A stretch of 64,000 nucleotides of DNA from Pyrinomonadaceae bacterium. GTDB taxonomy: Bacteria > Acidobacteriota > Blastocatellia > Pyrinomonadales > Pyrinomonadaceae. Both the position numbers and the translations under genes were made by a program. The DNA lies in assembly GCA_014380365.1 (NCBI GenBank), contig JACMJZ010000031.1, positions 124,001-188,000 of the forward strand. The letters are read 5' to 3'. Every line of letters begins with the position of its first letter. Position 1 is the stretch's first letter. The notes below the pieces were generated by a model. It searched no databases, was not told the origin of the DNA, and worked only from the letters and a program-made list of their open reading frames with translations. Below, in pieces: positions 1 to 14,371 of this stretch.

Positions 1-578
1 AGTTTCCAGCCGAGTGGAAGTGCCGCAGCGGCCAGAAGAATTTTGATGATGTCGCCAGGGATAAACTTCAGGACCGTGAGTTGGAACGCGGCTATTGCCG
101 GCGTTTGTGTGACCAAGGCAAACCAGGCCCAGCCGCTCAACATTATTACGATTGAACCGATGGCCATCGCCACGACAGCCGTCGGGAATCGCTTGTCCCA
201 ACCGTTTTCCGCAAAAGCGCCGGTGATAAATGCGGCGGCAGGAAACGCGACCAGGTAGCCGCCCGTTGGCCCAAAGAGATGAGCAATGCCGCTGTGACCA
301 CCATAGAAGAATGGCAAACCACTAGCGCCTTCAATCAGATACACAATCATCGCCATCGCGCCCAGACGCGACCCCAGCAACGCGCCGGTAAGTAATACAG
401 CAAAGCTCTGGCCGGTGATGGGAACAGGCCCGATTGGAATTACCACCTGGGCAGAAAGCGCCACCAGCAAACTAAACGCAACTACGATGGAAACGGAGCG
501 CGTCCAGTCAACCGGATAAAGCGCAGCACCCAGAAGCGTCTCGGCTGGCATCGCTGGTTGTTGATATGCAGTACTCAT
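1..578 (-). CDS. bioY: BioY family biotin transporter (3' end cut by window)
   Basis: Substrate-binding membrane subunit (S component) of an ECF-type biotin importer. Read on the minus strand from ATG at 578, 192 residues are visible and no stop is reached before the window edge. The family is about 190-200 residues, so only a few C-terminal residues are missing. The protein is almost entirely hydrophobic, with about six membrane segments. Family-typical stretches are ITGQSFAVLLTGALLGSRLG in the first third and FGPTGGYLVAFPAAAF in the middle. No BioM/BioN energizing subunits are visible here, so it works alone or with subunits encoded elsewhere. The next gene on this strand is the pyrophosphatase. 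No biotin-repressor operator was recognised in the short gap. Confidence 0.9.
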   Translation of the reverse strand, partial: MSTAYQQPAMPAETLLGAALYPVDWTRSVSIVVAFSLLVALSAQVVIPIGPVPITGQSFAVLLTGALLGSRLGAMAMIVYLIEGASGLPFFYGGHSGIAHLFGPTGGYLVAFPAAAFITGAFAENGWDKRFPTAVVAMAIGSIVIMLSGWAWFALVTQTPAIAAFQLTVLKFIPGDIIKILLAAAALPLGWK

Positions 579-591
579 AAATGACCTGGTG

Positions 592-657
592 TCGAGTTTG
601 GGTTCGGAGTTTGGAGTTAATCATACCCCGAAATTCAAAACTCGCAACCCATAGTTA
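592..657. repeat. degenerate inverted repeat between hppA and bioY
   Basis: One arm is GAGTTTGGGTTCGGAGTTTGG (from about 594) and the other, after a short spacer, ends AAACTCGCAACCC (to about 651). The arms pair imperfectly. It lies immediately after the hppA TAG stop and resembles the other gap-filling palindromes in this window, but it is weaker. Confidence 0.45.
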
Positions 658-659
658 GT

Positions 660-3434
660 CTAGTCCTGTTGATCCCTGGGCGGCAGCGGCTGCGGGTTAA
701 GTGAGACCTCGTCGCCGGGTCGCACGCCTGCCGGCGGCAGGGGCTGCGGGTTGAGTTCGACGATCTCACCTGGTCTAACGATACCCGGTGGTTCGGGCTG
801 CGGATTAAGACTGACGATTCCACCTGGTGGCAGGGGCTGCGGATTGAGCGAGACCAGATCGCCCGGTGCCAAATTTCCAATTCGCATCGTATGGAACGAG
901 CGCCAGACAAAAACAGTTGAAGCAAGGAAGAATATCGCCGCCAGCACGTGGCTAATCATTGGCCCATTCTCACCAAATTGGCCGCGAGGGTCAGCAATTG
1001 AAACCGCGAGCTCAACTGCGAGCAAGCCGAACAACGTGGTGAACTTGATTACCGGATTCAGCGCCACTGACGAAGTATCTTTGAATGGATCGCCCACCGT
1101 GTCGCCTACCACTGTGGCATCGTGTAGCGCCGTGCCTTTCTGTTTTAGGTCCACTTCAACCACCTTCTTCGCGTTGTCCCAGGCGCCGCCGGCGTTGGCC
1201 ATGAAGATTGCCTGATACAGACCAAAGATGGCGATCGAAATCAAATAGCCAATGAAGAAGAACGGCTCGACAAAAGCGAACGCCAGGGTGGAGAAAAAGA
1301 TCGTCAGGAAGATATTGAACATGCCCTTCTGCGCATACTGCGTGCAGATCTCGACGACCTTCTTACTATCTTCAACAGAAGCTTTCTCCGCTCCGTCCAG
1401 GCGGATGTTGGCCTTGATGAACTCCACCGCGCGATAGGCCCCGGTGGTTACCGCCTGAATCGACGCGCCGGTGAACCAGTAAATCACCGCGCCACCCGAT
1501 ATCAAGCCCAGCACAAACGGCGCGTGCAAGAGCGACAGATTCTCCGTTCTGGTGGTGAGTCCGTCGGTCAGAGTCATCATGATCGAAAAGATCATGGTGG
1601 TGGCGCCGACCACTGCCGTGCCAATCAGAACCGGTTTGGCAGTCGCCTTAAACGTATTGCCCGCGCCATCGTTTTCTTCGAGCAAGTGTTTCGCGCGCGC
1701 GAAGTTTACGTTCATGTTGAAGTCGCGCTTGACGTCAGCTTCGACGTTGGGCACCTGTTCGATCAGCGACAACTCGTAAACCGACTGGGCGTTGTCGGTC
1801 ACCGGGCCATAGGAGTCAACGGCGATTGTTACCGGTCCCATACCGAGGAAGCCAAAAGCTACCAGGCCGAAAGCGAATACCGGCGCCGCGACCATCAGGG
1901 CGTCGAGGCCCATGGTGCTGAAGTAATAAGCCACCGACATCAGGCCGACGATAGCAAGGCCCAGCCAGTACGCCGAAAAGTTTCCGGCTACGAGTCCGGA
2001 AAGAATGTTGAGTGACGGCCCGCCTTCGCGTGAAGACGTGACCACTTCCTGTACATGCAGCGACTCGGTCGAAGTGAAAATCTTGACCAGCTCGGGAATG
2101 ATTGCGCCCGCGAGCGTGCCGCACGAAATGATTATTGAGAGCTTCCACCAGAGGCTGGTGTCGCCGCCGAGCGTCGGAATAGTCAGATACGAAGTGATGA
2201 ACGTCACGCCGACCGAAAGAATGGACGTGATCCAAACCAGGGAAGTTAGCGGTGCTTCGAAGTTCATCTTGTCAGCGTTGCGGTACCGCGCTTTCGCGAT
2301 TGCATCGTTGATGAAATACGAAGCGGCGCTAGCGATGACCATCATGATGCGCATCACGAAGATCCAAACGAGCAACTGAACCTGGACAGTTTCACCGCGC
2401 ACGCCCAACAAGATGAAGGTGATCAGGGCCACGCCGGTGACGCCGTAAGTTTCAAAGCCATCAGCGCTGGGGCCGACTGAGTCGCCCGCGTTGTCGCCAG
2501 TGCAGTCGGCAATCACGCCCGGGTTGCGCGCGTCGTCTTCCTTGATCTTGAAGACGATCTTCATCAGGTCAGCGCCGATGTCGGCAATCTTGGTAAAGAT
2601 GCCGCCGGCGATACGCAGGGCTGCGGCGCCGAGTGATTCACCAATTGCGAAGCCGATGAAGCAGGGGCCGGCGTAGTCGCCGGGAATAAACAGCAGGATG
2701 CAAAGCATGATCAGCAGCTCGACGCTGATCAGCATCATGCCGATGCTCATTCCGGCTTTAAGTGGAATTGCGTAGAGGGGAAACGGTTTGCCTTCGAGAC
2801 TGGCGAAGGCGGTGCGCGAGTTGGCGAAGGTGTTAACGCGAATGCCGAACCACGCGACGCCGTAACTGCCGGCGATGCCGATCAAACTGAAAGCCAGGAT
2901 GATGATCACCCGGAATGGCTCCATCCCCGAGAGCACGCCGAAGTAAAGGATGATGACGATGCCGATGAAGACTTCAAGAATCAGAATGAACTTGCCCTGC
3001 GTGATCAGATAGGTCTTGCACGTCTCGTAGATAAGCTCCGAGATTTCCCGCATCGCCTGATGAACCGGCAGCTTTTTCAAGTTCATGTACATCGCCAGAC
3101 CAAACAGCAGGCCGAGGATGCAAACGATGATTCCCATCAGCAACAAGTTGTGCCCATCAACACTGCCGCCAAAGAACGTGACGCTACCGAGGTCGGGCAG
3201 GATTAGATTGGCCTCGCCTCCGCCGTGTGACTGAGCAAAAACCGGCGACGCGGAAACTGCCATGCCTGCCAAAGCGGCGGCAAGTGTCAGCCCCGTTCGA
3301 CGAATCCGCCGAGTTCGCGCGCTAACCAGAGACAGAATGCCCGCACCCGCCTTGTTGTTAGTATTTTTTCGAATAAGCAATGCTGCCAAGCAAACTGTTA
3401 GCAGGCTGATAATTGAGACCAGCGATATTTCCAC
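660..3434 (-). CDS. hppA: membrane-bound proton-translocating pyrophosphatase with repeated C-terminal tail
   Basis: Integral membrane pump that couples hydrolysis of pyrophosphate to cation export. It has 924 residues and starts at GTG (3434), preceded by AAAGGA at suitable spacing. Family signatures are DIGADL (284-289) and DNAGDSVGPSADGFETYG (314-331). In the stretch GNTFKATAKP (592-601), Lys596 lies where potassium-independent enzymes carry Lys and potassium-dependent ones Ala, so potassium-independent activity is inferred. The N-terminus is odd: a first hydrophobic segment, a basic loop, then a second signal-like segment ending near SPVFAQS (about 62-69). The last 70 residues (855-924) lie outside the normal pump fold and hold four copies of LNPQP(L/E)PP. 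The protein is longer than the usual 660-800 residues because of these end extensions. Confidence 0.95.
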   Translation of the reverse strand: MEISLVSIISLLTVCLAALLIRKNTNNKAGAGILSLVSARTRRIRRTGLTLAAALAGMAVSASPVFAQSHGGGEANLILPDLGSVTFFGGSVDGHNLLLMGIIVCILGLLFGLAMYMNLKKLPVHQAMREISELIYETCKTYLITQGKFILILEVFIGIVIILYFGVLSGMEPFRVIIILAFSLIGIAGSYGVAWFGIRVNTFANSRTAFASLEGKPFPLYAIPLKAGMSIGMMLISVELLIMLCILLFIPGDYAGPCFIGFAIGESLGAAALRIAGGIFTKIADIGADLMKIVFKIKEDDARNPGVIADCTGDNAGDSVGPSADGFETYGVTGVALITFILLGVRGETVQVQLLVWIFVMRIMMVIASAASYFINDAIAKARYRNADKMNFEAPLTSLVWITSILSVGVTFITSYLTIPTLGGDTSLWWKLSIIISCGTLAGAIIPELVKIFTSTESLHVQEVVTSSREGGPSLNILSGLVAGNFSAYWLGLAIVGLMSVAYYFSTMGLDALMVAAPVFAFGLVAFGFLGMGPVTIAVDSYGPVTDNAQSVYELSLIEQVPNVEADVKRDFNMNVNFARAKHLLEENDGAGNTFKATAKPVLIGTAVVGATTMIFSIMMTLTDGLTTRTENLSLLHAPFVLGLISGGAVIYWFTGASIQAVTTGAYRAVEFIKANIRLDGAEKASVEDSKKVVEICTQYAQKGMFNIFLTIFFSTLAFAFVEPFFFIGYLISIAIFGLYQAIFMANAGGAWDNAKKVVEVDLKQKGTALHDATVVGDTVGDPFKDTSSVALNPVIKFTTLFGLLAVELAVSIADPRGQFGENGPMISHVLAAIFFLASTVFVWRSFHTMRIGNLAPGDLVSLNPQPLPPGGIVSLNPQPEPPGIVRPGEIVELNPQPLPPAGVRPGDEVSLNPQPLPPRDQQD

Positions 3435-3707
3435 GATTGTGTGATTCCTTTCGGTCGTTTAATAAGCGGTGGGGACAATTCTCGCCCCCTTGGTTAACAG
3501 TGGGCAGCGGCAGCGCTGACAATCGTCTTTGCCAAAAGCGCATATTATTGCCGATTTAGGGTGAGCTGTCCAACTGGGGAGTGAACCACTGGCACCAGTT
3601 CTGCTCCTGGAAAGCATCGATTGCGCAGCTTCTTTCCAAGGCTCGGAATACTCTGAGTACGGTCCGAACGATAAAGAAATGCCTACCCCTGTGCGCACTG
3701 GAATTAT
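3435..3707. other. gene-poor gap upstream of hppA and the FAD operon
   Basis: Divergent intergenic stretch. It presumably holds the hppA promoter on the minus strand. Short open frames here have no recognisable protein character. No strong inverted repeat was found, unlike most other gaps in this window. Confidence 0.4.
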
Positions 3708-3736
3708 TTGACTTTTCGCGCTCAAGAGTCTATGTT
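3708..3736 (+). promoter_or_regulatory. sigma70-like promoter for the FAD/kinase/receiver/HEAT operon
   Basis: TTGACT (3708-3713), 17 bases, then TATGTT (3731-3736). Both boxes are near consensus and the spacing is ideal. It points toward the ATG at 3935, giving a leader of about 190 bases. Seen in sequence; activity is inferred. Confidence 0.5.
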
Positions 3737-3934
3737 GCGCGCGTTTCGCATTAGACTGGATGCTGGCGGGAACCTCCGAACGGTAGATTCAATCGGTCCA
3801 GTCGCTAAGATCGAATATGATTTCGAGACGAGGCGAAACGGTGATGTACTCACAATCATGAGTGGAAAGTATTAGCTCGATCACTCCGCCCGGTTTTGTT
3901 TCACAACCCAAGTTTCGAAGGAGAAGCCTCTACC

Positions 3935-5284
3935 ATGACCCTCTTCTCATCAGCCCTCCCCATTCTTGACGTAGACGTAGTTATTGTTGGCGGCGGAATT
4001 CAGGGTCTGTGGCTGCTTGCGGATCTCATCGATGCAGGCTATCAGACAATTTTGCTGGAGAGACAAAGACCCGGATTCGGCCAAACCGGACATGCTCACG
4101 TGTTTCTCCATGAGGGCCACCTCTACGCGAGCATGCTCAGAGAACAACAGAACGATGCCGTGCAGCGTGTCATGCCTTTGCTGACGGCGAATGGTCTTTG
4201 GGAGACCGCATTGGCAGGCGGGCGGCTACAGAAAGCGAAAGCTTTACGAAGTGAATTTTTTATCGGCTGGAGCAACGTGGTGAGCGGCCTGGAGTTTGCA
4301 AACCGCTGCGCCTTGGCAAACCTTCACTGTGACAGAATCGATCAGATGCCCGGGAAGTTCGGAGCCTGGGCCAATCTTCCAAGCCTGTACCAGAGCAAGG
4401 GTGTTTGCCTTGAGTCGAGCGTCCTCCTCGATCAGTTGCTGACCTTCAGCGACATCCGCAAGCGGGTTGGCTGCTGTCACAAGATAAGTGTCGAAGCCAA
4501 TGAATTAGGAAGCTACGATTTTCTCGCCGAGCACGACTCTGAACTTGCTGAGAAGAATACCCGCACGCTGTCTCTTCAAGTCAGAGCTCGAGCGGTAGTG
4601 CTTTCGGCCGGAACCGGGAATGAACATCTGATAGACCACCTCTTTGAAGGACCGACGCGTCAGCCCAATCCGAAAGCTACGAAGCAGCAAACGGTTAAGA
4701 CTTTCATGCTGGTGGTTCGCCATCTGAACGGCTCGTTGCCTCCGGTCACCGGCATGTTTCCGGATTTCGGCGGCATCTTCATGGTGTCTCGTGAAGATGC
4801 GCAAGGCCGGACCGTTTGGCTGATAGGCGACAGACAACGCCAATTGGTGACGGTACCGGGCGAAATGACCACCCTTGATGCCATCACCTGGTTTCAAAAC
4901 TTAAAGAAGGCACTGGCGACATTGCTTCCGCAACTCATTGATGACCCTAATAATTACGAATGGGGCATCTATGAAGCAATCAAGGCTGAGCCCTGGAGGG
5001 ATAAATCAGGCGCCGGCGCCGGTGGCGGATTTCCCGTGGGCTTTCACGTGCATGAACATCCTCTGAAGCCCGTTTGGTTGGCCTGGCCCGGCCTTTTAAC
5101 CTTCGCCCCGCTAGTCGCCAGTTCAATTGTGACTGGTCTCCAGCAGAAAGTGGTTTCGTCTTCATCGACGGATTGGGACTTGTGGGAACGCTTTCGCTTT
5201 ACCTTGCCTGCCGGAGAGTGTCGCTGGAAAAAGACTCCTCTCCAAACTTGGAAAGACTTCAACACTTGTTTCTCGCAATCTTGA
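3935..5284 (+). CDS. FAD-dependent oxidoreductase (DAO-like)
   Basis: Predicted soluble flavoprotein of 449 residues. The N-terminal dinucleotide-binding fold is clear: DVVIVGGGIQG (about residues 14-24) and the acidic end of the second strand in LLERQ. A following segment, GQTGHAHVFLHEGHLY, is rich in His and may line the flavin site. The ATG at 3935 is preferred to a TTG 13 codons upstream because GGAGA stands about 8 bases before it. The substrate is not recognisable; amino-acid or hydroxy-acid oxidases share the fold. It is the first gene of a four-gene set, 39 bases before the histidine kinase. That context suggests the enzyme supplies or senses a redox or metabolite signal for the kinase, which is inference. 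Confidence 0.8.
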   Translation: MTLFSSALPILDVDVVIVGGGIQGLWLLADLIDAGYQTILLERQRPGFGQTGHAHVFLHEGHLYASMLREQQNDAVQRVMPLLTANGLWETALAGGRLQKAKALRSEFFIGWSNVVSGLEFANRCALANLHCDRIDQMPGKFGAWANLPSLYQSKGVCLESSVLLDQLLTFSDIRKRVGCCHKISVEANELGSYDFLAEHDSELAEKNTRTLSLQVRARAVVLSAGTGNEHLIDHLFEGPTRQPNPKATKQQTVKTFMLVVRHLNGSLPPVTGMFPDFGGIFMVSREDAQGRTVWLIGDRQRQLVTVPGEMTTLDAITWFQNLKKALATLLPQLIDDPNNYEWGIYEAIKAEPWRDKSGAGAGGGFPVGFHVHEHPLKPVWLAWPGLLTFAPLVASSIVTGLQQKVVSSSSTDWDLWERFRFTLPAGECRWKKTPLQTWKDFNTCFSQS

Positions 5285-5323
5285 CAAGCACAATAGATTG
5301 AATCTCGCCAGGACGAAGACAAA

Positions 5324-7561
5324 ATGAAAGCCACTGATTCGAAGGTTACACCTCAGACCTACTCGCTTGATTGGTTCTTGTCGTTGATAAGCGCTGACTC
5401 TATCGAAGTCATCTTTGAAGCGCTCACAGTTCGTACCAGGGAATGGATGCAGGTTTCACGGGCGGCGCTGTGGTGGCTCGATACGAGTCACAACGGCTTC
5501 CGCCTGGTGCCGGAAGGACAAAATGACAAGAAGATCGATCTCACCGCTAATTTCATTCCCTATGATGCTGCGACTAGCCTGGGACTGCTCTCGGCGGAAG
5601 ACACAACCGAATTGGCGGAGACTGTCGAGTTCAACCTTCCTGATTTCGAATTTGCCTCCAGCCTTGCCGCCCGAATTCACTATGAGGAGCGAACAACCGG
5701 AATTCTTATCGTCTTCCCAAAACAAGCCCGCTACTCATGGTCCGCAGCGGAGCGCGACCTCTTGAGCAGAATCGCTCGCAACGGCGCCGAGCTCTGCCGT
5801 AATTTCGAAAAACGCGAAAAGCTCACCCGCTTAGTCAAGCTCGTTCAGGAGATGAGTGAAAAGACCCAACTACGCGACCTGTACGATCTGGTACTGCGCG
5901 ACGGTAGAGCGCTCCTGGGTTGCGAACGCGCAGTTGTGCGGGGTCTTAACTTGCAGGACGGACACCTCACGTTTGGCGGCTCCCATCCGCCTGCGCGCGA
6001 TGGTTTTTCACTTCCCCATGGGGAAGGCATCACCGGTTTAGCGCTCGAAAAAGGCCACGCTTTCCGCGTTGATGATGTCACGACGCCTGAGTGGGCGAAG
6101 AGTTATCGTGCTCTTTGGCCCCTCCTGACGCCAACGCGGTCCGAACTCGCCGTTCCGATACTGCAAACGAAGTATCGAGTACGCGTAAAGACCACTGACG
6201 ATTTCGTTGATAAACCGTTCGGCGTTCTCAATTTTGAGAGTCCCACGGTGGCGGCGTTTTCAAGCCTGGATGAATACTGCGCCGAGGTTATTGCAGATCG
6301 GATGGCACCGGTGATGGAACGAATTGAGTATGACTTCAAGCTTGGAAAAGTACGCAAGGCCTCCCAAGACTTGGCGACTAAGCGTGATTGGGATTCGATC
6401 CTGGATACTTTGCTAGCGGAAATTCAGAATGCTTTGGGTTACGAATTTGTAAGCTTGTCGATAGTAGATCAAGATGCCGGAGTAATCAGGTGTGAGCGCG
6501 TAGTGGGGCTTCCTCCAACTGATGCTGAGAAGTTCCGCCTGGCCGCGGTCCATGGACTGGACACAAACCATGTGCAGGCAGACGTAGTGCGTCATGGTTG
6601 GACGGATGTCCCAGATCCTGAGGACTCTCGCCTTAGCAATATAAGCAAACAGTTTGGTCTCGCCGGCATGATTCGCGTTTTTATTCCGATGAAAGTTACC
6701 TCACGTAATGAGGTCATTGGAACTGTTAGCGCTGGTTATGATCGCACCTACCGAAAGCATATTTACTGGCGAGATATTCAGCTCCTGAGAATACTGGTAG
6801 CGTTTGGAACGAACGCGATGGAATTGTTGGACCGCGGAAGAATAGATCGCGTGGGTCATGAGATGAACGCGCCGTTGACCGCAGTTCGTGCAAACCTTCA
6901 GCGGTTGCGTCGCAAGCGCGAGAAACTCTCGGAAGAGCAAATCGATCTAGCTCTCGAAGACATGGAGACTGATGCCAATGTGCTCCACTTCCAAATGCAG
7001 CAGTTGTCCTACGTACTGGGCGGAAAGATTGCGGACATCCTCGGACAGCCGCTAAACCTCGAGCCGGTATTAATGTTCAAGGATATTATTATCAAAACTC
7101 TAAGCCAGCTCAAATCTCTAGTCCGTGATGAAGGTCTGGATCCGCGCAAGGTTTCATATAACGAGGCGGACATACATAAAGTTAAGCGAATTGAGGTGGA
7201 CAAAAGCAAGATAAGTCAGGTCATCTTTAACCTTTTTATGAATGCTGTGAAGTATGCCGATAATCCTGAAAGCTTTGAGATTCGAGTGGGCGCGGAGGAG
7301 GAGCGGGATCACTACGTAATCTCTTTTTCTGACTGGGGGATTGGCGTCCCAGAGGGTTTGAAGGACCGGATATTCGAAGAGCGTTTTCGGGCGCCAAACG
7401 TTCGGAAGGTGGCTGGCTCGGGACTTGGTCTCACGATCGCGAGAGAGATCATGCGCAAACATGGCGGAGACCTCATCCTCCAAAAACGCTATAAGCCTAC
7501 AGAGTTTCACTTGATTTTCCCCAAACGACCTAGGAGGCGCCATGAGAATAATGTTCGTTGA
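5324..7561 (+). CDS. multi-GAF sensor histidine kinase
   Basis: Soluble sensor kinase of 745 residues with no membrane segment. I read three GAF-like sensory domains (about 20-165, 185-335 and 360-505). A HisKA helix follows with the phospho-acceptor His512 in GHEMNAPLTAVRANL, then an ATPase domain. The N box is QVIFNLFMNAVKYA, the G1 box DWGIGVPEG, the F box FEERFRAP and the G2 box GSGLGLTIAREIM. All catalytic boxes look intact. The ligand of the GAF domains cannot be told from sequence; the lack of membrane anchors implies a cytosolic signal. Its stop lies 20 bases inside the receiver gene, so the two are translationally coupled and probably form a cognate pair. Confidence 0.92.
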   Translation: MKATDSKVTPQTYSLDWFLSLISADSIEVIFEALTVRTREWMQVSRAALWWLDTSHNGFRLVPEGQNDKKIDLTANFIPYDAATSLGLLSAEDTTELAETVEFNLPDFEFASSLAARIHYEERTTGILIVFPKQARYSWSAAERDLLSRIARNGAELCRNFEKREKLTRLVKLVQEMSEKTQLRDLYDLVLRDGRALLGCERAVVRGLNLQDGHLTFGGSHPPARDGFSLPHGEGITGLALEKGHAFRVDDVTTPEWAKSYRALWPLLTPTRSELAVPILQTKYRVRVKTTDDFVDKPFGVLNFESPTVAAFSSLDEYCAEVIADRMAPVMERIEYDFKLGKVRKASQDLATKRDWDSILDTLLAEIQNALGYEFVSLSIVDQDAGVIRCERVVGLPPTDAEKFRLAAVHGLDTNHVQADVVRHGWTDVPDPEDSRLSNISKQFGLAGMIRVFIPMKVTSRNEVIGTVSAGYDRTYRKHIYWRDIQLLRILVAFGTNAMELLDRGRIDRVGHEMNAPLTAVRANLQRLRRKREKLSEEQIDLALEDMETDANVLHFQMQQLSYVLGGKIADILGQPLNLEPVLMFKDIIIKTLSQLKSLVRDEGLDPRKVSYNEADIHKVKRIEVDKSKISQVIFNLFMNAVKYADNPESFEIRVGAEEERDHYVISFSDWGIGVPEGLKDRIFEERFRAPNVRKVAGSGLGLTIAREIMRKHGGDLILQKRYKPTEFHLIFPKRPRRRHENNVR

Positions 7562-7973
7562 CGACGAGCGGCGGCGGATGCGGCTGTATGTCGAAGAATT
7601 GCAAGACAACGGTCACGAAGTCTTGTTTGAAGACAATGTTGATTCTGCTCTGGCGGTCATCGAGGATCCAACTAGACATTTTGACCTGTTGGTGCTTGAT
7701 ATTTCGATGCCTCCGGGCGAGACCTTCGAGTTTGAAGATACCAGAGGCGGTGCGCGTACGGGGCTAGCCTTATATGATAAGATTAGGGGTTTGAGGCCCG
7801 ACCTAAAAATCGTGGCCCTTACTAGTGTGGCTGAGCGCCGCGTAGTGGAACAATTAACACGGGAGAATCCGCGGCTTTGCCTATTCCTCAGAAAGCCTGA
7901 GAACCTACCATTTCTGTTCGCGCAAAAGGTAGAAACGTTTTTGTCGAGAACTGCGGACACCGATAATCTATGA
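7542..7973 (+). CDS. single-domain response regulator (REC)
   Basis: Stand-alone receiver of 143 residues with no output domain. Acidic pocket Asp7-Asp8, phospho-acceptor Asp53 in LLVLDISMPPG, Thr94 in ALTS and Lys118 in FLRKPE are all present. An insertion of about a dozen residues (EFEDTRGGARTG) follows the phosphorylation loop, between Asp53 and the third helix, which is unusual for CheY-like proteins. The start overlaps the kinase gene by 20 bases, and the stop overlaps the next start as ATGA. With no DNA-binding domain, its output must pass through a protein partner; the HEAT protein encoded next is the obvious candidate, by inference. Confidence 0.88.
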   Translation: MRIMFVDDERRRMRLYVEELQDNGHEVLFEDNVDSALAVIEDPTRHFDLLVLDISMPPGETFEFEDTRGGARTGLALYDKIRGLRPDLKIVALTSVAERRVVEQLTRENPRLCLFLRKPENLPFLFAQKVETFLSRTADTDNL

Positions 7974-9034
7974 GCGTGCCGAAACTCAGAAGGATCGAGG
8001 AGCGTATCGACCGAGCGCGCCGGGTTTACGAAGACACCAGTGGCGGCGTGGCGATGGTCAGCACACTGCCGCCTCAATTGAGGACCTGGGAAGAGCGGGA
8101 TGAGTATTTTAAAGTCATTGATGACGAGTTGAACACAGTGGGTCGCGTCGAAAAAGCTGATGACGCGGCGAGGTTGCACGATCGTGCCGGGGAAGCGAAT
8201 TATCTTTTGGATCTGATGGTCAATGATCATCGTGCTCGCACGCTCGCCGCCATAAATATCATTCCAGAAACCGAATTGATCTCTGCCCCGTTTATTCAGA
8301 ACAGATTCGTGGACCTGGCAATGCATGATTTCGATCCAAAGGTGAGGCGAACTGCATGGCTGCAACTTTGTCACTACCATGCTAAAGGTGAGCATCATGC
8401 CACGGCTGGCGGTAGTGATAGTCATGGAAACTTTGGTCGCGAAAGAATGCGACGTTTGTTCAACGAGTTAATGCGCGAGCGGAGTCCGCTTGGGCCGCGC
8501 GGTTCGTTCGTGGATTCCGCCCATGTTCGTGAAGGGCAGGAGAAGCTCGTGTCTGAGTTGCTGACCGCATTGGCTCGCGCGGAAGGCGATCGCAAGGAAG
8601 TCGCGCTTACTCTCAGTGAGATCGGCGGCGAAGAAGTAACCGTTTTTCTGGCGGATGCCTTGCGCTCAGAAATCGAAGAAGACAGCCCTGACGAGGAGTA
8701 CCCAATATACCTCGCTTCCGCACTTTCAAATCTCGGCGGAGCTGACGCGGTGGAAGGCCTTTTGCGCGCGGCCGATGAGGGCGCCGAGCGAGTGCGTCTT
8801 GCTGCTTTGTCCGGGCTTGAATCTCTGGCTACCGCTGGGTCCACTGCCCTACTCGAATCTCCCGAGCCCGCAACCATTGAGGGTGAAGAGATGAGGACTG
8901 CATTTGTCAACTTAGCGGAGCGTCTTTCAGCACTAATCTTTGCCTCAGAGACGCCGACCTACGTCCGCCATAAGGCCTCCGAATTACTCGATGCGGTTAG
9001 AATCTCGCTGAGGACGATCCCCGTTCACGCGTGA
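7970..9034 (+). CDS. HEAT-repeat-like protein, possible output partner of the receiver
   Basis: Cytosolic alpha-helical protein of 354 residues, no signal peptide. Helical repeats are visible around FDPKVRRTAWLQL (about 122-134) and again from about 205 to 300, with phrases such as EVALTLSEIGGEEVTVFLA and ERVRLAALSGLESLATAG typical of HEAT/PBS-lyase-like scaffolds. A His-rich linker HYHAKGEHHATAGG lies near residue 140. No catalytic motif was found. It shares ATGA with the receiver stop, so it is co-translated with it. The family is not recognised beyond the repeat fold. Its likely role is a protein-interaction platform at the end of this signalling operon. Confidence 0.7.
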   Translation: MSVPKLRRIEERIDRARRVYEDTSGGVAMVSTLPPQLRTWEERDEYFKVIDDELNTVGRVEKADDAARLHDRAGEANYLLDLMVNDHRARTLAAINIIPETELISAPFIQNRFVDLAMHDFDPKVRRTAWLQLCHYHAKGEHHATAGGSDSHGNFGRERMRRLFNELMRERSPLGPRGSFVDSAHVREGQEKLVSELLTALARAEGDRKEVALTLSEIGGEEVTVFLADALRSEIEEDSPDEEYPIYLASALSNLGGADAVEGLLRAADEGAERVRLAALSGLESLATAGSTALLESPEPATIEGEEMRTAFVNLAERLSALIFASETPTYVRHKASELLDAVRISLRTIPVHA

Positions 9035-9190
9035 AACCGCTGTCTCCTCCAATCGCAAGAAAGCATGCAACGACGAAGCCGTAGTGGGCGCGCCCTTCTC
9101 AAATGTATTCAGGTTTGAGAGAAGTCTCGCTGGGGTTGATTACTGTTGAAGCACAATTGAATCAAGGAGAACACCCGGAATGCTTGCAAG

Positions 9191-10903
9191 TCATTCCAGA
9201 CTGGTGGCAGCGTGAGCCTCCACCAGTGAGCCCTTCTGTCTGTCGCCGCGAATCTTGATGAGGGCAACGATGGCGAGGTAGAGCGCCAGGACGACGAGGG
9301 CTGCGGCGGTAATCGCATTGATCAGTTCGATATCCAACACGCCCACCCCTATTTTAGTGACTTTCAGGTTTCCGATTACGAGCGCGACCAGCGCCCAGAG
9401 TGTGATCACAAGCACGAAGATCATCGGCAGGAGGGTGAAGGCGATTCGCTGGCGTGCCTGGTAAAGCCAGACCGTTATCGTCAGCAGCGTTAATCCGGCG
9501 AGCAACTGGTTTGACGCTCCAAACAGCGTCCAGAACTTCAGCCACGAGTTTGGCGGCGCGAAGAGGATGAAATAGAGCGGTAGCCCCAGAGTCAACAAGG
9601 TGCCGAGGAGCGCGCCAGCTTTACCCTTCCAGCCGAACAGCTCCTGCACAATGTAACGGCCCAGTCGCATTGAAACGTCGAGCGTGTCAAACACGAAAGT
9701 TGAAAAAGCCATCGCTCCGAAGGTGACCGCGAAGGCCAGGTTATCCTTGCCGATAATCAGCGTCAGAAATTGGCCGATGCCGTTGCCGTAGATCGTTCCT
9801 GGCGCTTTGCCGCGCAGCGTCTCCTGCGCGACGATCATCACGGTGACGAGAGCAATTAACGCCACGAAGCCCTCAGCCAACATCGCACCGTAGCCAACCG
9901 AGCGTATGTGCGACTCGCGATCTACCTGCTTCGACGTAGTACCCGAACAGACCAGGCCGTGAAAACCGGAGCAGGCCCCGCAGGCAATAGTCACAAAGAG
10001 AAACGGGAAAAGCGTCCCCGTCATTCCGCCGATATCAAACGATTTGAAAGCCGGTTGCTGAATATCGTAACCACCGAAGAAAACTCCGATGATGCCGAGC
10101 GCCAGCGCGGAGTAAAGAATAAATCCACCCAGATAGCCGCGTGGTTGGAGCAGCGCCCACACCGGCACGATCGACGCCACGCCGCAGTAAATAATAATCA
10201 GCACGCCCCAGGTCTTATGATCGAAGACCAGCCAGTTTGAAGTCATGGTGCCGACCCAGGAGAGCGCGAATGCTGCGGGGACGAAAATCAAAGTCACTAA
10301 CCAGAGCGGCGGGTTGAGATAACGCTGCACCAGACCCAGCAAGATCGAGAGCAACAGGTACATCACGCTGGCCGCAGCCACTGCGCCGCCTGGATTGAAG
10401 TTAACCATTGTGGCCTTCAACTCTTCGGAGCCACCGACGAACGTCCCCGCGGTAATATCCGCAAAGGCCACAATCACGTAGAGCAGTGCGATCCAAATGA
10501 AACCCATCATGGCGCGGCCGGCGCCGGTTCCCAGATGTTCGCGCGCGATCTCGGCAATCGAAGTGGCGCCGTGACGTACGGATGCCGCCAGAGACGCGAA
10601 GTCGTGCACGGCCCCGATCAACACTACGCCTAACCCGATCCACAGCAGACACGGCAGCCAGCCGAATGCCTGACAGGCGAGAATTGGCCCGGCTATGGGA
10701 CCGGCAGCGGCTATGGCGGAGAAGTGTTGACCGAAGAGATAGAAAGGTTTGGTGGGAACAAAGTCGACGCCGTCGTTCACTCGATTGGCGGGAGTTGTCC
10801 GTGCGTCGTCGAGCTTAAACTGTCGGGCTACCCAGCCGCCGTAGAGACGATAGGCGGCAGCCAACATCAGTAGAAAGCCGACTGCAAGCAGCGTCAGCGT
10901 CAC
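9191..10903 (-). CDS. cstA: CstA-type carbon starvation/pyruvate transporter
   Basis: Polytopic membrane transporter of 570 residues. In Enterobacteria, homologues (CstA, BtsT) import pyruvate or peptides. The start is GTG at 10903. Family stretches are HFSAIAAAGPIAGPILACQ near residue 65, GAVHDFASL near 95, and ACGACSGFHGLVCSGTTSKQ near 310. The protein is shorter than E. coli CstA (about 700) and ends soon after the last membrane helix, as in other short homologues. It converges with the HEAT gene. The gap holds a weak hairpin around CTTCTCAAA/TTTGAGAGAAG (9093-9123). Confidence 0.92.
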   Translation of the reverse strand: MTLTLLAVGFLLMLAAAYRLYGGWVARQFKLDDARTTPANRVNDGVDFVPTKPFYLFGQHFSAIAAAGPIAGPILACQAFGWLPCLLWIGLGVVLIGAVHDFASLAASVRHGATSIAEIAREHLGTGAGRAMMGFIWIALLYVIVAFADITAGTFVGGSEELKATMVNFNPGGAVAAASVMYLLLSILLGLVQRYLNPPLWLVTLIFVPAAFALSWVGTMTSNWLVFDHKTWGVLIIIYCGVASIVPVWALLQPRGYLGGFILYSALALGIIGVFFGGYDIQQPAFKSFDIGGMTGTLFPFLFVTIACGACSGFHGLVCSGTTSKQVDRESHIRSVGYGAMLAEGFVALIALVTVMIVAQETLRGKAPGTIYGNGIGQFLTLIIGKDNLAFAVTFGAMAFSTFVFDTLDVSMRLGRYIVQELFGWKGKAGALLGTLLTLGLPLYFILFAPPNSWLKFWTLFGASNQLLAGLTLLTITVWLYQARQRIAFTLLPMIFVLVITLWALVALVIGNLKVTKIGVGVLDIELINAITAAALVVLALYLAIVALIKIRGDRQKGSLVEAHAATSLE

Positions 10904-10942
10904 GTTAAAGAGTCTCCATAGAACTCGTCATCATGCGCCCGG

Positions 10943-11224
10943 CTAGCGATCGCGCCAATAACCGGGCCGTTTTTGGTGCGCAACTGCTGTAATGAATACT
11001 ACGCTGTTCTTGATGCGGTAAAGAAAAGGAAATCTCGCGAGCACGTAGCGTCGTTCACCGGAGCGTGCCTCAGGCCAACGCGTTGGCGACGCGGCGATAT
11101 GTCGGAGGGATTCAGCGATGTCGGTAGCGAACGCACGGGCCGCGAGTTTGCTCCGCTCTCGATACCAACTCTTTGCTTCGGAGAGTTCCTGGTCAGCTTC
11201 GGGATGGAATTCGATCGTGATCAT
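10943..11224 (-). CDS. ParE/RelE-family toxin
   Basis: Small basic protein of 93 residues when started at ATG 11224, which overlaps the antitoxin stop as ATGA. Upstream in-frame codons lie inside the antitoxin gene and are rejected. Features of the ParE/RelE superfamily are an N-terminal strand MITIEFHPEADQEL, a helical pair, and the C-terminal strand pair RRYVLARFPFLYRI followed by VVFITAVAHQKRPGYW. The family includes gyrase poisons and ribosome-dependent RNases; which one applies here cannot be told. The order antitoxin-then-toxin with overlap is classical. The C-terminal AHQKRPGYWRDR is typical of ParE-like members. Confidence 0.88.
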   Translation of the reverse strand: MITIEFHPEADQELSEAKSWYRERSKLAARAFATDIAESLRHIAASPTRWPEARSGERRYVLARFPFLYRIKNSVVFITAVAHQKRPGYWRDR

Positions 11225-11448
11225 TCGCCGCTCATTAGCTTGGCCTTGATCTCCTCCCAGGGAATTGTCTGAACCTTGCCCGACTCGATTTCCTGCCAAC
11301 GTCGCTCGGCTTCCTCGGTCCACGCACTTTCAACATCTGGATCACCAGGTGTTTCCAGGCTTTCAATCAGCAGACCAGCGAGCGTGGCGCGGTCGTTGTC
11401 TGTTAATTCCAGCGCCTCGCGAAACAACTGTCTGAGTTCGGTTGCCAT
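11221..11448 (-). CDS. addiction-module antitoxin (Unstab_antitox/TIGR02574-like)
   Basis: Acidic protein of 75 residues, partner of the ParE-like toxin. The start ELRQLFREALELTDNDRATL followed by LLIESLE matches the small antitoxins that precede RelE/ParE toxins in many soil bacteria. The C-terminal half contains VESAWTEEAERRWQEIESG, which in this family wraps the toxin. No separate DNA-binding domain is apparent. It is the first gene of the two-gene module. Confidence 0.85.
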   Translation of the reverse strand: MATELRQLFREALELTDNDRATLAGLLIESLETPGDPDVESAWTEEAERRWQEIESGKVQTIPWEEIKAKLMSGE

Positions 11449-11573
11449 AAATCCAATTTTACGCGAAGCGGCTGAAGATTCCTACGGATTAGTGACTGCT
11501 TCGGCAATGTCATACCACATTTCCTCAGTCAGCCTTTATTGTTAGACTTTCGTCATTCAAGATATGAACCTAT

Positions 11574-12359
11574 ATGAACCGACTCGTAAAACTGGAAAAT
11601 CTCGACACTAGTTTCGTCAATCTTGGCGCGCTGATTCGCCATCTGCGTCAGCGTAACTTTGTGGGCCGCGTGAAAGTGGCGCTCGAAGAGTATGAGGCCG
11701 ACGTCTTCCTCTACGGCGCTGAAGAGCCCAGCATTTGGGAGAAAAACCATGCAACTGGACGAGGCGCGCAGGGTAGGGATGCGATGGAACGATTACTGGT
11801 GCGCGCGCGTGAACCCGGCGGAATGATTACGATCTACGAAGGCCCAAAAGAAACTGGAAGCGCTAACGACAAGTCGCCCGGTTCCTCTGAAACGGCGGTC
11901 GTTGCCGAGGCTCATGAGTCGGCCGGATCCAGCATGGGTCACGTTCCGGCAGCATTAACTGTAGAAGTGGACTGGGACGAGCTGATTGTGGCAAGTGGGG
12001 AATTGATTGCCGCCGTTGAGCGCGCCGCACAGAGCGCTAACGAAGACTTCGTCGCTCATTTTCGCTCGGCGCTGGTAGCGCTCGGAGACGACTATCCCTT
12101 TTTGGATCCCACGCTAGGTGGATTTCAATACTGCAATGCAAAGGTACAACTGCGCGAGCGTCCGGCTGCGAGCGACTTTGTTTCGAGTTTGACTGAAGGC
12201 CTCCGCCGTACAGTTAGTAAACTTGCGGATGGGAAGGCCGGCGCGCGTTTTCGGGAGCGCGTCGCGGTGGAGTTGGCGGTGGTGGCGCGAAGAAATGAAA
12301 ATGCGTATGCGCAGTTTACTCCGCATCTCGACCGCATCGCCGGGACGAGAGTCCTTTGA
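11574..12359 (+). CDS. hypothetical protein with conserved-looking N-terminal region
   Basis: Soluble acidic protein of 261 residues, family not recognised. It has a compact N-terminal segment (1-50, including LDTSFVNLGALIRHLRQRNFVGRVKVALEEYEADVFLYG, here split by description only at residues 9-48), a low-complexity middle (about 95-130), and a helical C-terminal half that ends YAQFTPHLDRIAG. No signal peptide or membrane helix. No good Shine-Dalgarno precedes the ATG; a short direct repeat ATATGAACC stands just before it. The TGA stop is followed at once by a palindromic gap filler that runs to the start of the stress protein, so the two genes may be cotranscribed. Confidence 0.6.
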   Translation: MNRLVKLENLDTSFVNLGALIRHLRQRNFVGRVKVALEEYEADVFLYGAEEPSIWEKNHATGRGAQGRDAMERLLVRAREPGGMITIYEGPKETGSANDKSPGSSETAVVAEAHESAGSSMGHVPAALTVEVDWDELIVASGELIAAVERAAQSANEDFVAHFRSALVALGDDYPFLDPTLGGFQYCNAKVQLRERPAASDFVSSLTEGLRRTVSKLADGKAGARFRERVAVELAVVARRNENAYAQFTPHLDRIAGTRVL

Positions 12360-12446
12360 ATTTTCGGGATTTCGAAATTCGGAATTCGGAATCAACGTGA
12401 ACTGCTTGACCAAATCCGAAATCCGAAATTCGCAATCGAAATTCCC
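12357..12446. repeat. inverted repeat joining a stop codon to the next start codon
   Basis: Left arm of the type GGGATTTCGAAATTCGGAATTC (from about 12365) and right arm of the type GAAATCCGAAATTCGC (about 12418-12433). The element starts at the TGA of the upstream gene and ends exactly before the ATG at 12447. It leaves no recognisable Shine-Dalgarno for the stress protein. Confidence 0.65.
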
Positions 12447-13406
12447 ATGTATCCTTTCAGAAATATTCTATTCCCGACGGATTTCACGCCCCACGCTCGG
12501 GCCGCACTGAAGTATGCGGCGGCGTTTGCGCGTAGCGGTGGCGGACGCGTCGTAGTGTTTAGTGTTCAAAGCGGCAGCGTTCCGGCAAATTTACTCACGA
12601 TGCCGGAGGGTGTTTTCGCAGAACAGGAGAATCATTGGCTGCTGCAACTCCGAACCGAGGTTCAAAACCTTTTGGCCGATCCACTCTTTGATGGCCTTGA
12701 GGTCGAACCAGTTATCGTCGAAGGAGAGCCTGCGCCCGAGATCGCGAAAGCTGTACTCGCCTACGACATCGACCTGGTTACCGTCGTCACTCACGGCCGC
12801 AAAGGCCTCTCCCGCGCACTCTGGGGTTCGACCGCCGAGGAAATTATCGCGGAAGCCGTTTGCCCGGTGCTCACAATTCGTCCTCCTCAGCATGATTTTG
12901 TAGAAAATCAAGCTGGGCGCAGCCAGATTCATCTGAATCGCGTCTTGTTATCGACAAACTTCCGGCCATCATCTGTTGCTGCTACCCAAGTGGCGACACA
13001 ACTCGCAAATCAAACGGGAGCGGAGTTGCATGCCGTTTATGTGATTGGAGACTACCTCGAGCAGATCTCGGTGATGTTTCCCGAAAGCGGCCTCAACGCG
13101 CTGGCGCGGTTGCGCACTTACGTGCAGGAGCGCATGGGCCAGCTTTCACGCGAAGACGGCGCTCGCGCCATCGCCCACATTGCCGAAGGAAGGCCTTATG
13201 CAGAGATTGTTCGGATAGCAACGGAGAAGGAGGCCGATCTTGTGGTTATTGGCACGAATGTTCACGCATCGCTTTTTGGAGGCACACCCGTGCTCGGCTC
13301 GGAAATTGAACGCGTTGTGCGAAACGCGCCGTGTCCCGTTCTTTGCGTACCCGCAGCAAAAGTCCTAACGCCTCTTCCGGCGCTAATCACCCAGCCCGTC
13401 AGCTAG
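12447..13406 (+). CDS. tandem-domain universal stress protein (UspA family)
   Basis: Cytosolic protein of 319 residues made of two UspA domains, about 1-150 and 165-310. The first begins FRNILFPTDFTPHARAAL. Its nucleotide-loop region is VTHGRKGLSRALWGSTAEEI. The second ends VIGTNVHASLFGG followed by EIERVVRNAPCPVLCVP. Loops of the G-x2-G-x9-G(S/T) kind suggest that at least the first domain may bind ATP. Tandem Usp proteins serve in stress survival, but the specific partner is unknown. The start codon directly follows a repeat arm and has no visible ribosome-binding site. Unequal codon or base use was not evident. Confidence 0.92.
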   Translation: MYPFRNILFPTDFTPHARAALKYAAAFARSGGGRVVVFSVQSGSVPANLLTMPEGVFAEQENHWLLQLRTEVQNLLADPLFDGLEVEPVIVEGEPAPEIAKAVLAYDIDLVTVVTHGRKGLSRALWGSTAEEIIAEAVCPVLTIRPPQHDFVENQAGRSQIHLNRVLLSTNFRPSSVAATQVATQLANQTGAELHAVYVIGDYLEQISVMFPESGLNALARLRTYVQERMGQLSREDGARAIAHIAEGRPYAEIVRIATEKEADLVVIGTNVHASLFGGTPVLGSEIERVVRNAPCPVLCVPAAKVLTPLPALITQPVS

Positions 13407-13437
13407 GTTCGAGGTCAAGCTCTTTCGCGCGACGATT

Positions 13438-13545
13438 CCGGGGCAGTAGCCCGCGCGTAAGCAAGGGCGTTGCCTTCGTGAGCAGATACGATGAGTTGGT
13501 GTCGTGGGGACGACGCCCTTCCTTACGGTCGGGCTACTGCCCCGG
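13438..13545. repeat. F1 palindrome, copy A
   Basis: Left arm CCGGGGCAGTAGCCCG (from 13438) continuing to GGGCGT, and right arm ACGCCCTTCCTTACGG continuing to GGGCTACTGCCCCGG (to 13545), with about 40 bases between. Same family as the elements at 51981-52060 and 53276-53352. It lies between two convergent genes without touching either stop. Confidence 0.85.
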
Positions 13546-13567
13546 AGAGGTGATTGTTTCTGTTCGC

Positions 13568-14371
13568 TTACTGGGAAACTAATTGCAAGCGACCGTCCGG
13601 CAGTCTCACAGGAAACACGCTCGGTTCATACATCGTCAGCGGAGTTGATTCCTTGCGCTGCGCGCTGGCGAGTTGATCGCGGGTGATGTTGTAGGCGTAA
13701 CGCGCGGCTGAAGGATCGCGAATCATCCCATAGCGTTTACTGATTCGCCGCACATACTCCTGTGTTTCATTGTATGGTGGAACGCGCCAGCCATACTTCA
13801 TTACCGCACCCTCGCCGGCGTTGTAGCCAGCCAGTGCCAGATTTACGTCGCCCTTAAACATGTTCAGAAGAAAGCGCATGTAACGTGCGCCGCCTTCCAC
13901 GTTCTGACGCGGATCCCAAATACTGGTGACGCCAAAACGGCGCGCAGTGCCCGGCATCAACTGCATGAGGCCGCTCGCACCTTTGTGCGAAAGGGCGCGA
14001 GGCTTGAATGTCGATTCCTGATGCATGATCGAGTAGAGGAGCAGGGGATCGACGCCATTGCGCGTGCCGGATTCAACAATCAGGGAATCGGTATTCGAAT
14101 TTCCGGTCGTGTATCCGCCAAGCGAGTTGTTACCCTTGATTTCTGCCATCCGGGTATTGATGATTGCGTTAATCGATTCGGCGCTGGCCGCATAGCCACC
14201 CCGACGAAGTTTCTTACCGGCAACCACCTTCGACGGCGCAGGCGGCGGCGTCTCGACCCTGATTCCATTTGCGAAATCGAAGTTATCGAAACGATAGCCA
14301 ACGGTATTCTGAGCGAAGGCCGCGGTGGTCGTAAGGAGAAGTAGCGCAACAGAAAGGGTAAACGTTTTCAT
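13568..14371 (-). CDS. secreted lytic transglycosylase (SLT family)
   Basis: Cleaves the glycan strand of peptidoglycan between MurNAc and GlcNAc, forming anhydro-MurNAc. The 267-residue precursor has a signal peptide (1-20, ending TAAFA/Q). The catalytic domain (about 95-225) carries Glu119 in HQESTFKP, the GLMQLMP motif (134-140), AGYNAGEGAV (181-190) and YNETQEYV. All family 1 SLT motifs are intact. The N-terminal 75 residues after the signal are Pro/Lys-rich and may be a linker. It converges with the stress protein across an F1 palindrome. Confidence 0.93.
   Translation of the reverse strand: MKTFTLSVALLLLTTTAAFAQNTVGYRFDNFDFANGIRVETPPPAPSKVVAGKKLRRGGYAASAESINAIINTRMAEIKGNNSLGGYTTGNSNTDSLIVESGTRNGVDPLLLYSIMHQESTFKPRALSHKGASGLMQLMPGTARRFGVTSIWDPRQNVEGGARYMRFLLNMFKGDVNLALAGYNAGEGAVMKYGWRVPPYNETQEYVRRISKRYGMIRDPSAARYAYNITRDQLASAQRKESTPLTMYEPSVFPVRLPDGRLQLVSQ

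Follow-up and report, generated by a model that had tools for sequence, protein, structure and literature searches.

We describe a pair of signalling genes, encoding a histidine kinase and a stand-alone receiver, that recurs in several bacterial phyla and is followed on the same strand by a third gene whose type changes from locus to locus. This kinase–receiver cassette with an exchangeable third gene is the notable finding of our analysis of 64,000 nucleotides of a Pyrinomonadaceae bacterium (the window), which form part of contig 7 of a 4.98 Mb draft genome. We favor, with moderate confidence, the reading that the genes make up a horizontally moving two-component cassette whose receiver would act on the product of the exchangeable next gene and not on DNA; a changing third gene is what is expected of a switch acting on a partner encoded beside it. 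In the mechanism that we propose, the GAF domains of the kinase would sense a cytosolic signal, and the kinase would autophosphorylate and then phosphorylate the receiver at D53. Once phosphorylated, the receiver would bind not DNA but the protein encoded by the next gene, altering the activity or assembly of that protein. The output slot would be exchangeable, filled here by a HEAT-repeat protein and at other loci by predicted conflict proteins, among them a protease and an NTPase.

Anatomy and domain content of the operon

The four open reading frames lie on the plus strand, at the positions and with the tight packing that the preliminary description had given: 39 bases separate the flavoprotein gene from the kinase gene, the kinase and receiver genes overlap by 20 bases, and the receiver and HEAT genes overlap by 4 (Table 1). 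The good promoter that the same description placed at 3708 fares less well; the site matches 9 of 12 positions, and the count of five such sites in 6 kb, vs 3.4 (sd 2.0) after shuffling, is not above chance. A tRNA search of window positions 1-14000 found none, and among repeats of at least 14 bases in the two operon end regions none marks the limits of the operon. As for the flanking genes, the H+ pyrophosphatase ends in a tail that is rich in proline and carries the repeat LNPQP(L/E)PP four times (window 660-870, minus strand), and a ParE-type toxin gene (PF05016, 1.5e-8, cut-off passed) lies near cstA (window 10943-11323, minus strand).

Table 1. Coordinates of the operon and its flanks in the window, and of the N-terminal domain shared by proteins encoded behind related receivers
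Feature	Position	Strand	Remarks
Flavoprotein gene	3935..5284	+	449 aa, FAD-dependent oxidoreductase, DAO family, PA4991-like; accessory, absent from related cassettes searched
Histidine kinase gene	5324..7561	+	745 aa, three GAF stretches, HisKA-like region, HATPase_c
H512 codon, presumed phosphoacceptor (RVGHEMNAPL)	6857..6859	+	His kept in 9/9 aligned kinase cores
HATPase_c domain, residues 626-735	7199..7528	+	
Stand-alone receiver gene	7542..7973	+	143 aa, LDxxMPPGE...TG type
D53 codon, presumed phosphorylation site	7698..7700	+	Asp kept in 9/9 aligned receivers
HEAT-repeat protein gene	7970..9034	+	354 aa, predicted all-helical; variable slot behind receiver
Sigma-70-like promoter match TTGACT-17-TATGTT, 9/12	3708..3736	+	Not above chance
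Left flank: H+ pyrophosphatase	660..3434	-	H_PPase 3.2e-183
Right flank: carbon starvation protein CstA	9191..10903	-	8.4e-130
Shared N-terminal domain	L026:8862-9581		
Shared N-terminal domain	L034:7300-8077	-	
Shared N-terminal domain	L024:7879-8480		
Shared N-terminal domain	L027:7000-7599	-	

The two-component features, i.e. the histidine and HATPase of a kinase and the acidic pair, aspartate and lysine of a receiver, are all present in the window pair. Pfam finds the three GAF stretches and HATPase_c (3.2e-19) in the kinase, with HisKA sub-threshold (18.7 bits vs a curated cut-off of 26.9); in the receiver, Response_reg is the only Pfam match above cut-off, and there is no output domain. 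D7, D8, D53 and K118 are invariant in eight receivers from seven loci. The stretch from D53 to T94 is longer in the window receiver than in ordinary receivers, and it interrupts the matches to Pfam and PDB profiles. The HEAT protein passes the Pfam cut-off for HEAT_2 (29.3 bits vs 27.7), and its repeats are clearest in the C-terminal half; in a single-sequence structure prediction (mean pLDDT 57.9), only the part beyond about residue 200 is confident, and the HEAT-like alphaRep matches of a fold search were weak, with a best E of 2.1e-3 and none at 0.001 or better. For the flavoprotein (Pfam DAO, 2.3e-16), one solved relative, PA4991 (5ez7; E 3.3e-12, residues 10-355), covers most of the protein and is distant from it; we know of no link between PA4991 and two-component signalling.

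The kinase–receiver pair in other bacteria

Relatives of the receiver are few and scattered. A single-sequence search found one among 395 other genomes of the phylum (G404, E 1.4e-13). The DNA pattern LDxxMPPGE-x12-TG, derived from the receivers of the window and G404 and run on a collection of 84,980 species, matched four loci: Calothrix rhizosoleniae, a Phycisphaerales metagenome-assembled genome (MAG), a KSB1 MAG and, again, G404. Receiver profile searches, which scored a limited number of candidates and whose counts are lower bounds, added at least two loci from the Calothrix phylum (G731 and G603; 338 other genomes, at 1e-14) and at least two from the window's own class (G055 and G836; 161 other genomes, at 1e-12). 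At each of these eight other loci, a co-directional histidine kinase gene lies directly upstream of the stand-alone receiver gene; taking what are in most cases the first possible start codons, the two genes overlap by 23 bases in KSB1, 17 in G731, 4 in G055 and 1 in both G603 and G404, and are separated by 3 bases in Phycisphaerales, 5 in G836 and 20 in Calothrix. Because the loci were chosen by receiver similarity, the adjacency of the kinase is an independent observation, albeit in a small sample, and it bears out the earlier view that the two genes belong together.

The proteins themselves tell a similar story. The kinases of Calothrix, G731, G603 and G055 are 32-35% identical to the window kinase over 618-753 columns, and for Calothrix the figure is 32% over 753 columns with E 6e-123 in a five-protein comparison. 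Across the nine loci, pairwise identities of kinase cores and of receivers are correlated (r 0.84, with the second receiver of G603 used), a value reached in 8 of 20,000 permutations. Judged by these alignments, kinase and receiver are an inherited pair. The window pair is nearest to G055 and the three Calothrix-phylum loci and not to G836, which belongs to the same family as the window but is a remote member: it is without the MPPG motif, has Asn at the second acidic residue and gave no tblastn match to E 0.01. This pattern of relatedness suggests horizontal spread.

The constant presence of a kinase also bears on a quite different role for the receiver, namely that of a conflict-system switch that responds to nucleotides, works independently of the kinase and is only modulated by it. 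The extra residues between D53 and T94 would suit such a switch, and kinase-less, kinase-independent receivers are predicted in related systems by Kaur et al. 2021 (PMC8195603). With a kinase adjoining the receiver in eight of eight relatives, and with D53 and H512 kept in nine of nine sequences (the second acidic residue is altered, in G836 only), we regard this role as highly improbable and retain phosphorylation by the neighbouring kinase as the preferred reading.

Searches of mobile elements and of a further class were also made. In plasmids, the receiver had no match at 1e-5; at 0.5, there were 164 matching records, and each of the 30 listed is a hybrid kinase, another regulator or unannotated. 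Of the 1,712 plasmid records that the kinase matched, none covers 80% of its length, and in the 30 matches listed only its C-terminal part is covered. No receiver relative was confirmed in viral contigs. A kinase profile run at 1e-120 on 291 genomes of the class of G603 returned only G603; three candidates were scored per genome, so members could be missed.

The G603 locus has features of its own. Two tandem receivers of the same family (L027:7584-8449, minus strand) lie between its kinase gene and the gene for an nSTAND1 NTPase; one of the two receivers might, by analogy, perhaps serve as a phosphate sink, an idea reportedly raised for Detocs. Directly upstream of the G603 kinase, a 639-residue protein with an apparent N-terminal membrane segment is encoded (L027:10700-12619, minus strand); no Pfam family matches it above cut-off.

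An exchangeable gene behind the receiver

Behind the receiver gene of all eight other loci, at a distance of no more than 150 bases, lies a co-directional gene whose type changes. The genes of G731 and G055 encode S8 subtilases of 987 and 1023 residues (8e-47 and 1.7e-46), and the Calothrix product, cut by the contig end, matches the N-terminal part of the subtilases (E 1e-68 in a 14-protein comparison). G603 has the nSTAND1 NTPase (1.8e-97), which in the same 14-protein comparison matches the subtilase N-terminal domain at E 4e-8. G836 has a DUF4062-EAD7 protein followed by a second EAD7 protein, and Phycisphaerales has a protein with a weak Mrr_cat nuclease match (0.002, below cut-off). The remaining slots hold a Band 7 protein in KSB1, on a contig of only 4,990 bases, and, in G404, a 283-residue protein of no assigned type with a calcineurin-like phosphoesterase (Metallophos) next in line; the Band 7 protein and the phosphoesterase could be ordinary neighbours. 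At the G404 locus we additionally observed a gene for an AAA/TPR protein a few kilobases from the slot and, nearby, a gene whose product reads as a candidate trypsin-like protease.

An N-terminal domain with an 'lMWm..G' motif and no Pfam family above cut-off is common to four of these slot proteins, namely both subtilases, the nSTAND1 NTPase and the Calothrix protein (coordinates in Table 1); it may be a receiver-binding or adaptor domain. The idea that the N-terminus of the HEAT protein is a diverged copy of this domain found no support (hmmsearch E 1.6; hhalign probability 1.6%, with a score of 17.7 vs at most 16.8 in 30 shuffles).

In the window, the slot holder is the HEAT protein. The slots of the eight other loci showed no HEAT protein, and its membership therefore rests on position, on the 4-base overlap and on composition. 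With respect to the last, GC3 is 0.56 for the kinase gene, 0.535 for the receiver gene, 0.569 for the HEAT gene and 0.596 for the flavoprotein gene, vs a window mean of 0.634 (sd 0.05; 40 mechanically chosen ORFs, operon genes included); the number of the 40 long window ORFs with lower GC3 is one for the receiver, one for the kinase, three for the HEAT gene and nine for the flavoprotein gene.

Could the pair be an ordinary orphan, with a receiver that acts, like CheY or DivK, on a target encoded elsewhere, and with flavoprotein and HEAT genes that are passengers on the transcript? Single-domain receivers are common, and relatives of the HEAT protein and flavoprotein were not found with the cassette at the eight loci, as such an explanation would have it. 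It sits poorly with the close co-directional gene behind every one of the eight receivers, with slot contents that are not housekeeping (S8 subtilase, nSTAND1, DUF4062-EAD7) and with the overlap of the HEAT and receiver genes, and we consider it unlikely. Returning to the reading of a switch on a neighbouring protein, we infer that the third gene encodes an effector; the probable direct target of the window receiver, which the receiver would bind, is then the HEAT protein. The proposal of a complete pathway with a HEAT scaffold and a protein contact as its output is reasonable; it has gained comparative support from the co-directional third gene at eight of eight loci, and the part of it that has to be given up is the four-gene set.

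The four-gene set and its site

A gene-neighbourhood check had been suggested for the four families. When it was run, the kinase–receiver pair recurred at eight of eight loci, and the flavoprotein and HEAT genes were absent there; neither protein had a match at the eight related cassettes in tblastn to E 0.01. On the refutation criterion that came with the suggestion, these two genes fail. Nor was a full-length relative of either protein found in 58 relatives (15 belong to the window's genus) or in 316 other genomes of the phylum, a sample that overlaps with the first. For the HEAT protein there was one weak partial match in the 58 relatives (G015, 6e-4) and none at 1e-5 in the 316 genomes; 22 matches in a pattern scan of genome contigs included no confirmed relative, and plasmids and phages gave no match. 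For the flavoprotein there were five matches of about 50-60 residues each in the 58 relatives, one of about 55 residues (1e-6) in the 316 genomes and none in plasmids. The four-gene set is, as far as these genomes and loci indicate, not a conserved unit. The flavoprotein appears to have been added locally; it might provide a redox input or output, a role that draws no support from the comparison of loci.

The flavoprotein might instead be the true partner of the kinase, feeding a redox signal to its GAF domains, with the HEAT protein as a platform for the flavoprotein. Such a redox circuit would make sense of a flavoprotein gene that is the first of a tight cluster, 39 bases before the kinase gene, and that is missing, like the HEAT gene, from the relatives searched. 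We find it improbable, given that the flavoprotein is near none of the eight related kinases and that its gene deviates less from the window mean in GC3 than the kinase, receiver and HEAT genes do.

The site of the operon is variable. CstA had a match at 1e-100 in 8 of 34 other genomes searched, and its downstream side was examined in six. In one of these six relatives (G016, of another genus in the same family), the H+ pyrophosphatase and cstA relatives adjoin in the same order and orientation without the operon, and the roughly 320 bases between them hold no ORF of 70 or more residues; one relative in six therefore speaks for an empty site into which the operon would have been inserted. Other content follows cstA in G013, G009, G019 and G020, and in G007 the contig ends; the two further CstA matches (G039 and G040) lie outside the sample. 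The side of cstA that bears the operon in the window appears to vary between species. In two congeners (L046:1515-2090, minus strand, and L048:1614-2132), a gene reading like that of a CBS-domain protein follows cstA.

Relation to known systems

The preliminary description knew of no described system with this set of genes, which is too strong a statement; Detocs and the conflict systems of Kaur and colleagues are close in logic. Detocs, credited to Rousset and co-workers in 2023, reportedly has the order sensor kinase, receiver and exchangeable effector, and is said to have a TPR sensor region in its kinase and a receiver fused to an effector domain. Loci of the window type keep the kinase–receiver pair in eight of eight cases while the third gene changes, an order that would correspond to that of Detocs if the third gene encodes an effector. 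They differ in that the window sensor is of the GAF type with no TPR match in Pfam, the 143-residue receiver is not fused to an effector, and the operon has no PNP effector. Because two features attributed to Detocs, the fused receiver and the TPR sensor, are absent, we do not file the operon as Detocs; by analogy, the operon may work like it. No PADLOC match was named for Detocs, and the PADLOC release may be without a Detocs model. The four operon proteins gave only partial PADLOC matches (for PDC-M43 and PDC-M60, the HATPase part at 2.6e-8 and the receiver part at 1.6e-6, not full-length), and none of the models matched the six neighbour proteins at 0.01. The glossary of PMC11249213 defines Detocs as a three-gene defensive two-component system. 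Most likely, the operon encodes a two-component switch on a neighbouring protein that is Detocs-like but differs in its GAF sensor and in a receiver that stands alone.

The conflict systems (VMAP/vWA ternary systems, iSTAND and EAD-linked effectors) offer a second comparison. Kaur et al. 2020 (PMC7159879) place HEAT repeats and Band7-like domains, as types that form superstructures, in the effector position; they also count receivers and a calcineurin-superfamily phosphodiesterase among the domains found there, and report that the vWA-associated effectors include receivers and no histidine kinases. EAD7, nSTAND1 and peptidases occur as terms in papers on these systems. Candidate effectors and scaffolds of the types listed there are seen in the slots of the related loci, and in the window only the HEAT protein is of such a type. 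The differences are that MoxR, vWA and VMAP domains are absent from the four genes of the window, and likewise from the six neighbours, and that the kinase is the constant part of window-type loci. Additionally, a figure legend on DefensePredictor (PMC13092281) includes HATPase and REC among the domains of predicted systems. A design of kinase, receiver and variable slot was not described in any title or abstract found in the open literature, which is weak evidence. Outside of conflict systems, the closest solved receiver by profile is 3a0r (E 3.7e-11), which we take to be the soluble kinase and stand-alone receiver ThkA–TrrA of Thermotoga; the likeness is limited by a profile match that stops at position 98 of 137, and we know of no effector slot linked to ThkA–TrrA.

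Outlook

The company that the kinase–receiver pair keeps leads us to infer a role in conflict or stress, possibly against phages. A broader idea, which we put forward only tentatively and hold to be possible but doubtful, is that of a distinct class of immune or stress systems in which one kinase–receiver switch, spread over Acidobacteriota, cyanobacteria and other phyla, would drive interchangeable effectors by way of its stand-alone receiver, with a non-enzymatic HEAT scaffold and an added flavoprotein redox module in the present case. If the cassette works as we propose, a phosphorelay would be wired straight into conflict-type effectors by the swapping of one gene; reading the slot behind a constant kinase–receiver pair would be a direct route to new effectors, and the operon would provide a testable case of receiver output through contact with another protein.
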